The notes beneath the pieces were generated by a model. The model saw only the letters and a list, made by a program, of their open reading frames with translations. It did not search any database and was not told the origin of the DNA. This document shows, piece by piece, positions 2,691-18,275 of a DNA stretch of 64,000 bases (within the stretch, counting starts at the first letter, position 1; each line of letters begins with the position of its first letter). The DNA comes from Ignavibacteriales bacterium (GTDB lineage Bacteria > Bacteroidota > Ignavibacteria > Ignavibacteriales > Ignavibacteriaceae). The translations under genes and the position numbers were made by a program. The stretch covers positions 1-64,000 of the forward strand of contig CP054182.1 in assembly GCA_015709675.1 (NCBI GenBank), read 5' to 3'.

Positions 2691-3446
2691 TTAAGGTTTT
2701 AGAATTGCGTAAATGGATTTTGCAATATCTTCTCCCTCAGGGTTATCAGGGAATACAAATTTTAGACGGGGATATTCCATAAAATTTGTGAGAATATCCA
2801 GCCGCCACTCATAATGATCCTGAGTTTCGGAATGATGCTGCGTGGTTGTTTTAGCGCGAAGGTTATAACCGGTTCCGAAAACATTTTCATTCGCGGAGCC
2901 CTTTGTGGTTGAGGTGGAAGTTCCTACAGTTGTGCTGCCAAGATGAACATGCTCAATCATTACTTCTTTTATATTTTCTCTGGCAAACCCGGCGAGTTTT
3001 CCGTTACTTACATCACCATAAAGCATTGATTCCTCAGAATAGAGCAGGAATGTGCCGTCATAGAATGAGTAGCCCTGCCCTCCCAGCCGGTCAAGCAGTT
3101 CCTGAGTTACAGCCTGGGTATGCTGCCACTTGGCATCCTCATAATTGTTATCAGCGCTGTTTCTGAGTCTGGTGAGAACCCAGGTCCCGACTGAAAAGAT
3201 ACCGAATATTACGGCAGCAGCAATTAGCCCCTCTATGATGCTTGACTCAGCAATATAAACATAGATGCCAAAAAGTGCCGCCGCACCCATACGGACATAT
3301 TTTCCGATCTTGAGGCGGTTCTCTGCTTCCTGAAGTTTTGTGAGTGCTTCACCAACCATCCGGTTAGTGTTGAAAGTTTGTACCTGAAATTCCTTTTCGA
3401 AATTATAAACTCCCGGATATTGTAATGCAACTACGGCTTCTTCCAT
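2691..3446 (-). CDS. Membrane protein of unknown function with cytosolic domain
   Basis: 251 residues. A soluble N-terminal helix region (about 1-48) precedes two closely spaced hydrophobic segments (about 50-90, YVRMGAAALFGIYVYIA and IEGLIAAAVIFGIFSVGTWVL), then a soluble C-terminal domain of about 150 residues. That domain alternates short strands (FLLYSEESMLYGDV, IKEVMIEHVHLG) with a Thr/Ser-rich loop (TTVGTSTSTTKGS) and ends in a helix (GEDIAKSIYAIL), which looks like bacterial PH-type membrane domains. I do not recognise a specific family. Start ATG at 3446. It appears to stand alone. Confidence 0.65.
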   Translation of the reverse strand: MEEAVVALQYPGVYNFEKEFQVQTFNTNRMVGEALTKLQEAENRLKIGKYVRMGAAALFGIYVYIAESSIIEGLIAAAVIFGIFSVGTWVLTRLRNSADNNYEDAKWQHTQAVTQELLDRLGGQGYSFYDGTFLLYSEESMLYGDVSNGKLAGFARENIKEVMIEHVHLGSTTVGTSTSTTKGSANENVFGTGYNLRAKTTTQHHSETQDHYEWRLDILTNFMEYPRLKFVFPDNPEGEDIAKSIYAILKP

Positions 3447-11918: not shown

Positions 11919-14621
11919 ATGAAACAGTTATTCTTTTGTTTTGTATTTCTGCTGCCAATGTATTTGAACGGGCAGCCGCAAACAGCAAATCCGGATATGG
12001 CGGTTGCTAACTTACCAGTCAGAGCAGTTGCTGTTGATGGCAATTATACTTACATAGGGGGTGATTTTACCTATGTCGGGCCAAATACAGGCAACGGAGT
12101 GAAAGTTAGTACAACTTCCCAAATCCCGGATGGCAGTTTTCCTAAAGTGAACGGTTATATCAGAGCGGCAGTTCCGGACGGAAGCGGCGGATGGTATATA
12201 GGCGGATCATTCTCACGGGTTGGAAACTACACGCGAAACAATATTGCTCACATACTGAGCACTGGTGCCGTTGATGAAACATGGAATCCAAATGCAGGCA
12301 GTGTCGTCAGAGCCATTGTTCTTGACGGCAGTTATATTTATGTCGCAGGAGATTTTCTATCCATTGGCGGTTTAACAAGATACCGGCTGGCAAAACTTAA
12401 CAATACCACTGGTGCAGCTGATGCAACCTGGAATCCTCATTCGAGCCACCGCGTCTACACTATTGCAGTATCAGACACCAGCATCTACGTCGGAGGTCAG
12501 TTTAGCTCAGTCGGTGGTCAATCACGATTCTCCATAGCAAAACTAAACAACACAACCGGCGCGGCTGATGTGAACTGGATTCCAAATCCGAGTGCCACTG
12601 TCCATACGATTGCAGTAAGCGGAAACGACATCTATGCAGGAGGGCAATTTACCAGCATTGGCTCCGCCTCCAGAAATAGGATTGCAAAGCTCAACAACAC
12701 AAACGGTGCCGCTGATACAGTATGGAACCCAAATGCCAACAATAATGTGTACAATATTGTAATAAACGGCAGCGATATATATGCAACCGGTATATTTTCC
12801 TCTATTGGAGGGGCAACCAGAAACTGTATTGCTAAGCTAAACAACACAACCGGAGCGGCTGACGGAACATGGAATCCAGATGCAAACGGTACTGTAGAAG
12901 TTATTGCTCTTGCCGGTAGTGATATTTTTGCGGGCGGGTCATTTACCTCTATTGGAGGGCAGTCATTTTCATATATTGCCAAACTGAACAATACCACTGG
13001 TGCTCCTGACGTATCCTGGAATCCGGGCGCCGGCCACAGTGTATATACTATTGGAGTAAACGGCAGCGACCTGTATATAGGCGGACAATTTGTGAATTTT
13101 AACGGAAAAAGCCGCAGCCGGCTTGCAAAAATCAACAATGTAACCGGTGAAGTTGATCCGGACTGGAACCCTGTTTCAGGAAGTCCCGTCTATGCTATCG
13201 CAGTCAGCGGAGACAGTGTTTTCGTGGGCGGACAGTTTGCCAACCTCGGGGGCAGAAAAAATATTGCAAAACTGAACAACACAGATGGCAGCGTAATAAC
13301 AGCTTTTAATGCAAACCCAAATAATTATGTTGAAGTGATAAAAATTAGCGGAAGTGATTTATATGTCGGGGGGCGATTTACCTCAATCGGAGGTGCATCA
13401 AGGAATCGTGTTGCAAAGCTTAACAGCACAACTGGTTTAGCAGATGCAACCTGGAATCCAAACGCTGACAATACGGTATTTGCCATGGAAACCAGCGGAA
13501 GCAATATATTCATTGGCGGCGAGTTTACCACGGTAAACGGCTCCGTTGCCAGAAACCGGCTTGCAAAACTAAATACTTCTGACGGCACTGCCGACAGCAC
13601 ATGGAATCCCAACGCGGACGGAATTGTCCGTGCTCTTGCCTTTGACGGAAGTAATGTTTACGCAGGCGGAGAATTCATTACCATTAACGGTGCTACGGCA
13701 AGAAACCGGATCGTTAAGCTGAACAACTCGGATGGCACGGCGGACGGTTCCTGGGACCCCAATGCCAACAATATTGTTCGCTCAATCGCTATAAGCGGCA
13801 CTGACATCTATGCAGGCGGTGATTTTACCAGTATTGGGGGTAATTCCCTTTCCGGTGCAGCCAAGCTGAACAATACCGATGGAGCATCTTATGCTTCATG
13901 GAATCCATCGCTGACCGTAACCGTAAATGTCAATACCGTAGTACTCAGCAATGATGATATATATCTTGGAGGCGGCTTTACAAGCGCAGGAGGAATTGCA
14001 CAGGGATACTTTGCGCTCTTTACGGACCGCGCCCTGCCTGTTGAACTCACAACTTTTACTGCGAAACGAATTTCAGGAGGTATATTGCTCATCTGGCGCA
14101 CTGCAACAGAAGTAAATAATTACGGTTTTGAAATTGAGCGCAAAGGCAATGCACAGGAAGATAATTGGCAGACTATCGGATTTGTTACCGGAAACGGCAA
14201 CAGTAATTCTGAAAAGAACTATCAGTTTACTGACACAGCTCCTCTTTCAGGCAGAAATATGTACCGCCTTAAGCAAATCGATTCGGATGGTAAGTTTACG
14301 TATAGCCCCTTAGTTGAAACGGGAAGCATAATTTCCCCTGACAAATTTACTGTTTTTCAAAATTATCCAAATCCGTTTAACCCTGAAACAACGATAAGAT
14401 TCGGACTTCCGGATGAAGCCCGGGTTAAACTGGAACTTTTCAGCATTACCGGAGAACGCATTGCGGTGCTAATGGATGAAATGCGTACAGCCGGTTTCCA
14501 TTCAACGAAACTGAGCACCAGTGAATTTAAACTTTCTTCCGGAATCTATTTTTACCGGATAACCGCGGTCAACAGCAAAGAGAGCATCAGCGAAATGAAA
14601 AAACTGACAATACTTAAATAA
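11919..14621 (+). CDS. Surface protein with 12 delta-60/DUF5122-type repeats and T9SS sorting domain
   Basis: 900 residues with a signal peptide (MKQLFFCFVFLLPMYLNGQ). About twelve repeats of 42-46 residues follow, each with the pattern [IY-GG-FTSIGG--R--IAKLNN-TGAAD--WNPNA---V], including WNPNAGSVV, WNPHSSHRV, WNPNANNNV and WDPNANNIV. These match the delta-60/DUF5122 beta-propeller family; twelve units may form two six-bladed propellers. Then a linker module (PVELTTFTAKR ... YRLKQID) and a T9SS C-terminal domain (NYPNPFNPETTIRFGLPDEA, ending MKKLTILK). It is likely displayed on the cell surface, perhaps for binding or adhesion. A palindrome and a regulator gene lie upstream. Confidence 0.88.
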   Translation: MKQLFFCFVFLLPMYLNGQPQTANPDMAVANLPVRAVAVDGNYTYIGGDFTYVGPNTGNGVKVSTTSQIPDGSFPKVNGYIRAAVPDGSGGWYIGGSFSRVGNYTRNNIAHILSTGAVDETWNPNAGSVVRAIVLDGSYIYVAGDFLSIGGLTRYRLAKLNNTTGAADATWNPHSSHRVYTIAVSDTSIYVGGQFSSVGGQSRFSIAKLNNTTGAADVNWIPNPSATVHTIAVSGNDIYAGGQFTSIGSASRNRIAKLNNTNGAADTVWNPNANNNVYNIVINGSDIYATGIFSSIGGATRNCIAKLNNTTGAADGTWNPDANGTVEVIALAGSDIFAGGSFTSIGGQSFSYIAKLNNTTGAPDVSWNPGAGHSVYTIGVNGSDLYIGGQFVNFNGKSRSRLAKINNVTGEVDPDWNPVSGSPVYAIAVSGDSVFVGGQFANLGGRKNIAKLNNTDGSVITAFNANPNNYVEVIKISGSDLYVGGRFTSIGGASRNRVAKLNSTTGLADATWNPNADNTVFAMETSGSNIFIGGEFTTVNGSVARNRLAKLNTSDGTADSTWNPNADGIVRALAFDGSNVYAGGEFITINGATARNRIVKLNNSDGTADGSWDPNANNIVRSIAISGTDIYAGGDFTSIGGNSLSGAAKLNNTDGASYASWNPSLTVTVNVNTVVLSNDDIYLGGGFTSAGGIAQGYFALFTDRALPVELTTFTAKRISGGILLIWRTATEVNNYGFEIERKGNAQEDNWQTIGFVTGNGNSNSEKNYQFTDTAPLSGRNMYRLKQIDSDGKFTYSPLVETGSIISPDKFTVFQNYPNPFNPETTIRFGLPDEARVKLELFSITGERIAVLMDEMRTAGFHSTKLSTSEFKLSSGIYFYRITAVNSKESISEMKKLTILK

Positions 14622-17029: not shown

Positions 17030-17676
17030 TATAGCAATTCTCCATTTTGGTTTTTCTGTTAAGTAAAAGAAAGGAATTCCGCGGAAGAAGAGCGGGAACA
17101 CTATGACCGGAGGAGATCCTGCGATAACAGCAGGGTAAGACCTGGAAGTGTTTAGTAATTCCTCAGTTATCAATTTTTTACCCCCGCTATCAGGCGTTTC
17201 CCCGGCTGCCTCTTCCCCGCCTGCACATAGGGAAAGGCTCTAAAGTACCTTAATTGATTATTATGCGAAAATTAATAAAAAACGCACATTTGAATGCAAG
17301 GAAAAAACCATTTTTTCAAAAAATTTTCCAAATAACTCTGATTGGAATATGTCCGGAATGATTGATATTTCGATCACGCAGGCATCTTGTAGCAGCGCTT
17401 TTCCGAAATAACAGGATAACCAAAGTAATGGAGTTAAAACAAAATATCCGGATTGCTCCGGATTCAGTGTGGTGTGACCGTCCCGATGGAATCGGGAAAC
17501 CACCGACCCTCTGCTTAAAAGTCCCGACGTGGCGGGATCTACCCCTGAGCTACGCGGTCATTTTTCAAACACTTCCCCTACCGACCCGCTGCTTAAAAGT
17601 CCCAATATGTCGGGAAACCACCGACGTGGATTTAAAACAAAAAATCCGGATTGCTCCGGATTTTATTGTGTGACAG

Positions 17677-17692
17677 TCCCGACATGTCGGGA
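17677..17692. repeat. Perfect 16-bp palindrome TCCCGACATGTCGGGA (best of seven copies)
   Basis: Self-complementary over all 16 bases. Variants occur at 17481-17497, 17522-17537, 17600-17615, 17717-17732, 17941-17956 and 18062-18077. All seven sit inside tRNA-Lys-derived sequence at one of two positions, replacing either the 3' part of the T-arm or the 5' side of the anticodon stem. Confidence 0.85.
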
Positions 17693-17750
17693 AACCACCG
17701 ACCCTCTGCTGAAGAGTCCCGATATGTCAGGAAACCACCGACGTGGATTT

Positions 17751-17780
17751 AAAACAAAAAATCCAGCTTTCGCTGGATTT
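17751..17780 (-). terminator. Terminator of tRNA-Lys
   Basis: AAATCCAGC (17759-17767) pairs with GCTGGATTT (17772-17780) across a four-base loop; on the reverse strand it is followed by a T-rich tail (complement of 17751-17760). It starts three bases after the encoded CCA end. Confidence 0.85.
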
Positions 17781-17782
17781 TC

Positions 17783-17857
17783 TGGTGACCGCGGGTGGGC
17801 TCGAACCACCGACCCTCTGCTTAAAAGGCAGATGCTCTACCCCTGAGCTACGCGGTC
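17783..17857 (-). tRNA. tRNA-Lys (UUU)
   Basis: 75 bases on the reverse strand with encoded CCA. Acceptor stem GACCGCG/CGCGGTC, D-arm GCTC-AGGGGTA-GAGC, anticodon stem TCTGC/GCAGA with loop CTTTTAA (anticodon TTT), variable region GGGTC, T-stem GGTGG/CCACC with loop TTCGAGC, discriminator A. All stems are perfectly paired, so the gene looks functional. It decodes AAA and probably AAG. It is the only intact member of an array of decayed copies. Confidence 0.97.
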
Positions 17858-17881
17858 ATTTTTTGTTAAAAATTTTCTTTT

Positions 17882-18143
17882 CCCCTGAGCTACGCGGTCA
17901 TTTTTTCAAATTCTTTCTCTACTGACCCTCTGCTTAAAAGTCCCGACGTGTCGGGATCTACCCCTGAGCTACGCGGTCATTTTCTGTTAAAATTTTTCTT
18001 TTCCCCTGAACTTCGCGGTCATTTTTTCAAATTCTTTCTCTACTGACCCTCCGCTTAAAAGTCCCGACGTGTCGGGATCTACCCCTGAGCTCCGCGGTCA
18101 TTTTCTGTTAAAAATTTTCTTTTACCCTGAGCTACGCGGTCGT
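17882..18143. repeat. Tandem 121-bp repeat made of tRNA-Lys fragments
   Basis: Two units (17882-18002 and 18003-18123) differ at only about five positions, and the first 20 bases of a third follow (18124-18143). Each unit holds two copies of the tRNA 5' end (CCTGAGCTACGCGGTCA), an anticodon-arm fragment (CTCTGCTTAAAA), the palindrome TCCCGACGTGTCGGGA and an AT-rich spacer. On the reverse strand it lies upstream of the intact tRNA gene, so it would be the leader side. Confidence 0.85.
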
Positions 18144-18275
18144 GTTGCCGAAAGAATTCGTAAACAGATTTTAAAATTATGACTTTTTTTGCTAAAATCA
18201 AAGCCCTGGTATCTGAAAAAATACCTATATTCGAGAACGGGAATTTAACCGCTTTGGTTCCCTAAATTCCCCGAA

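Follow-up and report, generated by a model that had tools for sequence, protein, structure and literature searches.

Hairpin-interrupted tRNA copies around a tRNA-Lys gene and their probable relation to small GIY-YIG nuclease genes beside structural RNA genes

The window analyzed here, i.e., the whole stretch of DNA under study, corresponds to bases 1–64000 of a 4.21 Mb genome assembled as a single contig. It contains a single tRNA gene, tRNA-Lys(UUU), located on the minus strand at 17783–17857 according to ARAGORN and at 17786–17857 according to Rfam, for which the RF00005 score (71.7 bits) was well above the gathering cut-off of 29. A preliminary description of this DNA had announced one perfect tRNA-Lys(UUU) with its terminator, and both tRNA searches bore this out, the terminator lying directly behind the gene. 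The flanks hold ten further pieces of tRNA-Lys, detected on both sides by blastn-short. Four pieces (17498–17521, 17538–17559, 17580–17599, 17693–17710) fall within the interval first reported, 17443–17857, and six (17882–17899, 17924–17940, 17957–17978, 18045–18061, 18078–18099, 18125–18141) fall beyond it, upstream of the tRNA. The interval first reported covers only the downstream half of the array; with the six upstream pieces, the full array extends over ca. 17446–18141, from a terminator-like stem at 17446 to a stub ending at 18141 (Table 1).

Table 1. Features of the tRNA-Lys array, listed from the intact gene outwards, downstream side first.
Feature	Position	Strand	Basis
Intact tRNA-Lys(UUU), CCA encoded	17783–17857	-	ARAGORN; Rfam RF00005
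Terminator of intact tRNA-Lys	17755–17784	-	Terminator scan; fold -18.1 kcal/mol, z -7.5
Downstream unit 1: tRNA piece 17693–17710 (tRNA 37–54), palindrome 17717–17732, spacer	17693–17754	-	Repeat/palindrome search, blastn-short
Perfect palindrome 17677–17692 (TCCCGACATGTCGGGA) at the expected T-arm place	17675–17692	-	Palindrome search
Downstream unit 2: tRNA 31–50 piece, palindrome 17600–17615, terminator 17641–17664	17580–17670	-	blastn-short, terminator scan
Downstream unit 3: end-to-end tRNA-Lys copy with two hairpins	17473–17561	-	blastn-short; acceptor ends judged by eye
Terminator-like stem, outermost downstream unit	17446–17463	-	Terminator scan
Upstream unit 1: tRNA 1–18 stub, tRNA 31–47, palindrome 17941–17956, tRNA 1–22	17882–17983	-	blastn-short
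Upstream unit 2: 121-nt repeat of upstream unit 1, palindrome 18062–18077	18003–18104	-	Repeat search, blastn-short
Outermost upstream stub: tRNA 1–17	18125–18141	-	blastn-short
Weak promoter-like site preceding the entire array	18168–18195	-	3 sites in region for 1.6 expected: count not beyond chance

The derivation of the units from tRNA-Lys and their tandem order, both claimed previously, were confirmed by the ten pieces and by a period of 121 nt on the upstream side. Downstream unit 2 is 87% identical to 17697–17787. In downstream unit 3, one hairpin (17481–17497, a 17-nt version of the palindrome) stands in for the T loop together with the 3′ strand of the T stem, and the other (17522–17537) for the end of the D stem and the 5′ strand of the anticodon stem. 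The terminator stem recurs in three versions, as had been noticed; this count is near chance (1.8 expected), and the two stems folded were far more stable than shuffled sequences (z -7.5 and -5.1). The palindrome has the near-constant consensus TCCCGA-N4-TCGGGA and replaces set pieces of the tRNA. Read in tRNA sense, the Lys context is GGTAGA, then GCATCTGC, then CTTTTAAG, and it is GCATCTGC, covering the end of the D stem and the 5′ strand of the anticodon stem, that gives way to the palindrome. With at most two mismatches, TCCCGACNTGTCGGGA has six sites in the array (12 matches over both strands; shuffle mean 0.02). An assembly artefact is unlikely, since the genome is one contig and a different genome of the genus carries an equal two-hairpin Lys unit. 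Elsewhere in the window, a 900-aa ORF (11919–14621, plus strand) displays, by eye, a signal-like start and many similar repeats of ~45–50 aa.

The same palindrome is found throughout the genome. When two mismatches were allowed, TCCCGACNTGTCGGGA gave 49 forward matches vs. a single one for the backward control, and the looser exact form TCCCGANNNNTCGGGA gave 40 matches vs. none. Thirty-six of these 40 exact palindromes, including the one at 3620104, are no more than 1 kb away from a tRNA or 5S gene, a space representing 1.7% of the genome (0.7 expected). As judged by eye, three of the four others belong to a tRNA-Ser-like unit (1039740) or to Pro-like units (3297494, 3297589), and the one at 1982351 has no apparent RNA origin. 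Also, a related palindrome, TTCCGACGTGTCGGAA, was seen by eye in an inverted repeat pair separated by ~8 kb (L066 and L067, genome 1973955 and 1982203).

Searches by BLAST against their own flanks, combined with reading by eye, revealed self-derived arrays at 11 of the 43 tRNA genes found (Lys-UUU, Ser-UGA, Ser-CGA, Ser-GGA, Asn, Thr-UGU, Asp, Met, fMet, Val-UAC, and Pro-UGG). The figure of 43 may be a few short, as 150 of the 223 candidates were scored in the tRNA search. The other 32 genes had no unit in the flanks examined, where matches were absent or else few and short, mainly linking neighbouring tRNAs; the flank of tRNA-Gln covered only 123 bp on one side. The upstream units of Ser-CGA escaped this search and were counted by pattern. 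The 3′ end of the 5S rRNA is likewise present as three tandem copies bearing the palindrome (L074, genome 3411600–3412000), each with a terminator-like stem by eye. Every array is built from its own RNA gene, and the palindrome is common to the arrays, Ser-GGA having other hairpin inserts.

The preliminary description had explained the Lys array by tandem amplification followed by decay. In its favour, we found tandem tRNA-derived units, one intact copy and diverged spacers. However, the breaks are not random: the same palindrome occupies fixed tRNA positions in unrelated tRNAs. Because it replaces the matching stretch in both Val and Asn, the latter in another genus as well, the copies cannot be regarded as simply decayed. 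Plain tandem amplification of the tRNA gene with random decay is therefore disfavoured by the recurrent inserts, and we hold it to be very improbable. RtT repeats, which had also been evoked, are tandem repeats at E. coli tyrT composed of the tRNA 3′ end and the downstream region; we know of no hairpin inserts or nuclease gene in them. They share with the units only the idea of a tRNA-derived repeat and are set apart by their description; membership was rejected, the units described here holding 5′ and internal tRNA parts as well as hairpins.

A fuller form of such arrays exists in relatives, where tandem units combine a GIY-YIG ORF of ~80 aa with a partial tRNA copy whose T, anticodon or D loop bears a hairpin. 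For example, in a genome of the same family (G007), tRNA-Lys is followed by two units, each with a small GIY-YIG ORF and the 3′ part of the tRNA, in which the palindrome takes the place of the anticodon arm. Intact GIY-YIG ORFs also occur in the Asn and Met arrays of the genome studied here and in the Ser-UGA array of its congener; none was found in the remaining arrays of the former (two of 12 hold one). In the window, neither a profile search nor tblastn with 84 GIY-YIG domains found such an ORF or a recognisable remnant. The best profile match, which lies beside the Lys array (17275–17373; 7.5 bits, E = 0.38), was discarded as noise, and none of the 15 best tblastn matches fell there.

All five ORFs tested with Pfam (80–84 aa) matched PF01541 above the cut-off, with E-values between 7e-15 and 1e-17. 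They match the GIY-YIG domain alone or, for three of the five, also the overlapping T5orf172 model, and in these five no separate DNA-binding domain was found, so that each amounts to a bare catalytic domain. Residues Y5, G18, R26, H30, and E62, which we take to be those of the catalytic motif, are among the columns invariant in 7/7 ORFs. Among solved structures, the best sequence matches were PDB 1zg2 (E = 5.6e-6) and 1ywl (E = 0.0013), two UPF0213-type entries listed as hypothetical proteins. These small stand-alone GIY-YIG proteins are of similar size (107 and 96 residues), and to our knowledge they have no known link to tRNA genes.

A profile (A1) built from seven array-linked GIY-YIG ORFs of four genomes matched 36 of 41 genomes, including the one studied here. 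Among the best A1 loci of 30 genomes, 28 include a tRNA, both misses starting near a contig end, and the figure is 24 of 26 once the four source genomes are set aside; the median distance between ORF and tRNA is 45.5 bp (22 full-length loci with a tRNA). At the level of the phylum, 189 of 296 genomes matched the profile, and 17 of 19 new loci, which were top-scoring and hence not a random sample, contain a tRNA. In two complete genomes (G019 and G002), 10 of 14 ORF clusters among the matches listed accompany a tRNA and one accompanies tmRNA; the three others (L318, L320, L322) hold no RNA gene. Two loci of the clade adjoin tmRNA, L323 (G002) and L329 (G029). PF01541 loci in four genomes (n = 26) include nine with a tRNA; none was seen at the six large loci (L185–L188, L191, L192; open frames of 172–661 aa), at the small loci L173–L175, at L189 of the congener, and at others. 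A single-protein scan of named genomes returned 17 loci, one of them in the query's own genome (L219) and two starting at a contig end: a tRNA is present somewhere in 11 and at ~600 bp or less in eight, and nine, two of which are cut by contig ends, have no tRNA within ~600 bp.

Over the loci examined, we tabulated 56 interrupted-copy events, each defined by genome, tRNA and position, some being near-duplicates or inherited. The table requires matches on both sides of inserts of 8–58 nt and misses inserts near tRNA ends. Fourteen inserts are clean, i.e., without deletion, and 42 replace 2–23 nt. All 14 clean inserts lie within the T, anticodon or D loop, where 3.6 were expected; two are common to both congeners, and inheritance may account for some of the Ser events. 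In the T loop, 8/8 stand exactly after GGTTC. The T-, anticodon- and D-loop positions were seen again, by eye, in further genomes of the phylum (12 lines). Two adjacent perfect hairpins were present in 7 of 14 inserts tested (13 clean ones plus a second Val variant) vs. 8 of 7000 shuffles. Stem sequences of the inserts vary between genomes. The folding energy was in the lowest 5% of shuffles for 34 of 41 replacement inserts and only 4 of 14 clean ones. Also, a hairpin replaces the anticodon arm in Lys copies of three genomes (G007, G029, G039) and in a Val copy of another (G010).

The palindrome also occurs outside these copies. In relatives G003 and G013, it is located mostly outside tRNA pieces, in other repeats (by eye), which suggests that it may constitute a small mobile hairpin in its own right, a module independent of the tRNA copies. 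In most of loci L257–L275 of G003, it appears by eye at the centre of a different intergenic repeat, in which it is preceded by approximately GTAACGCC and followed by CTGTCGGTACATTT; in G013 (L241, L244, L247, L254), it fills the middle of the repeats CATTGCGA..GAAGCAATC and CATTCTGA..GAAGAATC. We rejected the idea of a general insertion at hairpin tips, the complementarity of the flanks over 72 sites in relatives being 2.46/8 vs. 2.24 for mismatched controls; five of the 72 sites reach 6/8 (control 2.7%) and four sites are perfectly nested (8/8).

The location of the palindrome in G003 and G013 raises the possibility that tRNA flanks were duplicated in an ordinary manner and that spare copies simply tolerated an independent REP-like mobile palindrome, with the GIY-YIG genes as mere neighbours. 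An insertion into an intact single-copy tRNA would kill the cell, so that surviving inserts would necessarily be confined to copies, and the scarcity of intact GIY-YIG ORFs in the arrays of this genome points the same way, as do its four Y1 transposase genes (PF01797). Nevertheless, none of these four genes adjoins an array, which led us to reject a REP/RAYT identity, and an independent palindrome would hardly be expected to gather around tRNA and 5S genes as observed, nor clean inserts to fall in loops without exception, nor the best GIY-YIG loci to contain a tRNA so regularly. We thus consider this explanation unlikely. REP/BIME elements are short palindromes forming intergenic clusters, according to the portion of PMC2817692 available; the palindromes described here differ in being inside tRNA copies and, by eye, have no fixed flanking bases. 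Tiny double-hairpin or repetitive hairpin elements, some of them inside rRNA genes, occur in the mitochondrial DNA of Allomyces and sponges, and those of Allomyces have no flanking duplications (PMC2800124, in part). They resemble the hairpin and double-hairpin inserts of the arrays. However, they are mitochondrial, and the part of PMC2800124 available ties them neither to tandem tRNA copies nor to a GIY-YIG gene.

The number of units changes between genomes. Behind tRNA-Leu in G019 there are about five units of 450 bp with 98% identity, and behind tRNA-Asp in G002 about five units of 315 bp with 99% identity. Six units precede tRNA-Met in the genome studied here vs. none in its congener, and the outermost one abuts the very flank that directly adjoins the intact tRNA-Met in the congener. 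Similarly, the interval between Ser-CGA and Ser-GGA measures 491 bp with six units in the former and 157 bp with one unit in the latter.

Such turnover bears on another hypothesis, in which the units would be functional RNAs, i.e., hairpin-modified tRNA fragments transcribed as leader or trailer and influencing either the processing of the tRNA or the mRNA of the nuclease. Hairpins in loops, or in place of the anticodon arm in the Lys and Val copies mentioned above, could spare the remaining tRNA fold. The terminator stems recur, and in the Lys T-arm hairpin one compensatory change from T-A to C-G keeps the pairing. Against this, the Lys unit with both hairpins, taken whole, is hardly more stable than shuffled sequences (z -1.1), the upstream units of 59 nt only weakly so (z -2.0 and -1.9), the number of units varies strongly within the genus, and most tRNA genes have no unit in their examined flanks. 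As the units fold poorly as RNA, an RNA function is disfavoured and appears to us quite unlikely.

The nuclease lineages track the identity of the RNA gene. On a poorly resolved tree, built from 81 columns and comprising 48 of the 84 domains, RNA-gene identity changes 20 times, whereas 300 shuffles required at least 30 changes and 33.8 on average; when the loci of named outside groups were removed, there were 16 changes vs. a shuffle minimum of 23. One domain of at least 65 aa was retained per locus with an RNA gene at 700 bp or less, and seven duplicate loci were dropped. The group of nucleases associated with fMet spans two families. As far as such a tree can indicate, this pattern agrees with elements remaining attached to a single RNA gene. 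The two tmRNA-linked loci share an unresolved three-row fork.

The nearest analogue, by its described properties, appears to be SegB, a free-standing GIY-YIG homing endonuclease of phages T4 and T6 whose gene lies beside tRNA genes (PMC13096335; PMC2988022, each in part). In the part of PMC13096335 available, tandem amplification of tRNA and segB requires the nuclease activity of SegB, whose cleavage motif is RAWTSGAAC. The complement of this motif, GTTCSAWTY, corresponds to the T-loop sequence, and the full motif is present in only 23 of 68 tRNAs examined. Both systems have a GIY-YIG gene adjoining tRNA genes, and the SegB motif resembles the T-loop sequence. In contrast, SegB belongs to phages whereas the present arrays are chromosomal, and the segment amplified by SegB holds a full-length tRNA (PMC13096335, in part) whereas the units described here hold partial ones. 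Also, the words “hairpin” and “palindrom” are absent from that text as available, whereas the units carry hairpins, and the ORF here is a bare domain of ~80 aa. Comparison with phage proteins gave one weak match for one query ORF, and the likeness to SegB rests on its description. A homing endonuclease gene would sit at its target site and interrupt it; the ORFs adjoin RNA genes and the copies are interrupted in loops, but the intact gene keeps the site. A SegB-like amplifier would carry its nuclease gene and a full tRNA gene in each tandem segment; the periodic arrays described here hold a nuclease ORF and a tRNA that is not full-length. Since the separate DNA-binding domain is absent from the scanned 80–84 aa ORFs and the functional features are putative, we do not file the element as a homing endonuclease gene, although it may work like one.

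Considering all these observations together, we regard it as probable that the Lys array is an ORF-less form, either non-autonomous or eroded, of a GIY-YIG cassette targeting tRNA genes, whose cutting and mobility are putative. The nuclease would first break the RNA gene at a T-, anticodon- or D-loop sequence. The cassette would then enter the break and supply the missing part of the gene, leaving one intact and functional RNA gene. This second step is suggested by the presence of a single intact copy, by the location of 3′ pieces mostly downstream and 5′ pieces mostly upstream, and by the native flank adjoining the outermost tRNA-Met piece, all of which entry and rebuilding would account for. 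The displaced native piece would remain with its target interrupted by a hairpin and would resist recutting. By analogy with SegB, tandem amplification might follow through break repair between short tRNA repeats, and units without ORF would be copied on along with the array, giving the anatomy seen in the window. Several results weigh against this reading. The main gap is that the intact tRNA retains the loop that the nuclease would cut. Also, three quarters of the events, the 42 described above, replace nucleotides instead of being clean insertions, not every ORF of the clade adjoins an RNA gene, and the ORF is reduced to its catalytic domain. The window itself has neither a GIY-YIG ORF nor a recognisable remnant, only the Asn and Met arrays of this genome hold an intact one among those found, and the position of the palindrome in G003 and G013, the minority of tRNAs with the full SegB motif and the small number of unusually stable clean inserts count against it as well.

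A broader proposal, which we regard as possible though somewhat less likely than not, is that minimal GIY-YIG elements across the phylum parasitise the loops of structural RNA genes (tRNAs, 5S rRNA, tmRNA), one gene per lineage. They would rebuild the gene so that the host survives, and would close off the displaced fragment by a hairpin preventing a further cut; arrays would then be a polar record of past entries, and the Lys array an ORF-less record. If true, this would explain a recurrent tRNA-flanking feature across a whole phylum, give a role to tiny stand-alone GIY-YIG genes, and show how a selfish nuclease persists in essential single-copy RNA genes without death of the host. It would also make the movement of very small hairpin elements testable, and nuclease lineages each devoted to one tRNA could supply minimal nucleases with differing site preferences. 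Among the best-ranked matches in open-licence full texts, we found no description of bacterial chromosomes in which GIY-YIG genes accompany tRNA copies interrupted by hairpins, which is no proof of absence.

Finally, in two genomes of candidate phyla (L223 and L228, ~2960–3275), similar GIY-YIG ORFs were seen by eye between the halves of an inverted repeat resembling a terminator hairpin, the ORF seemingly lying within the loop of this hairpin.
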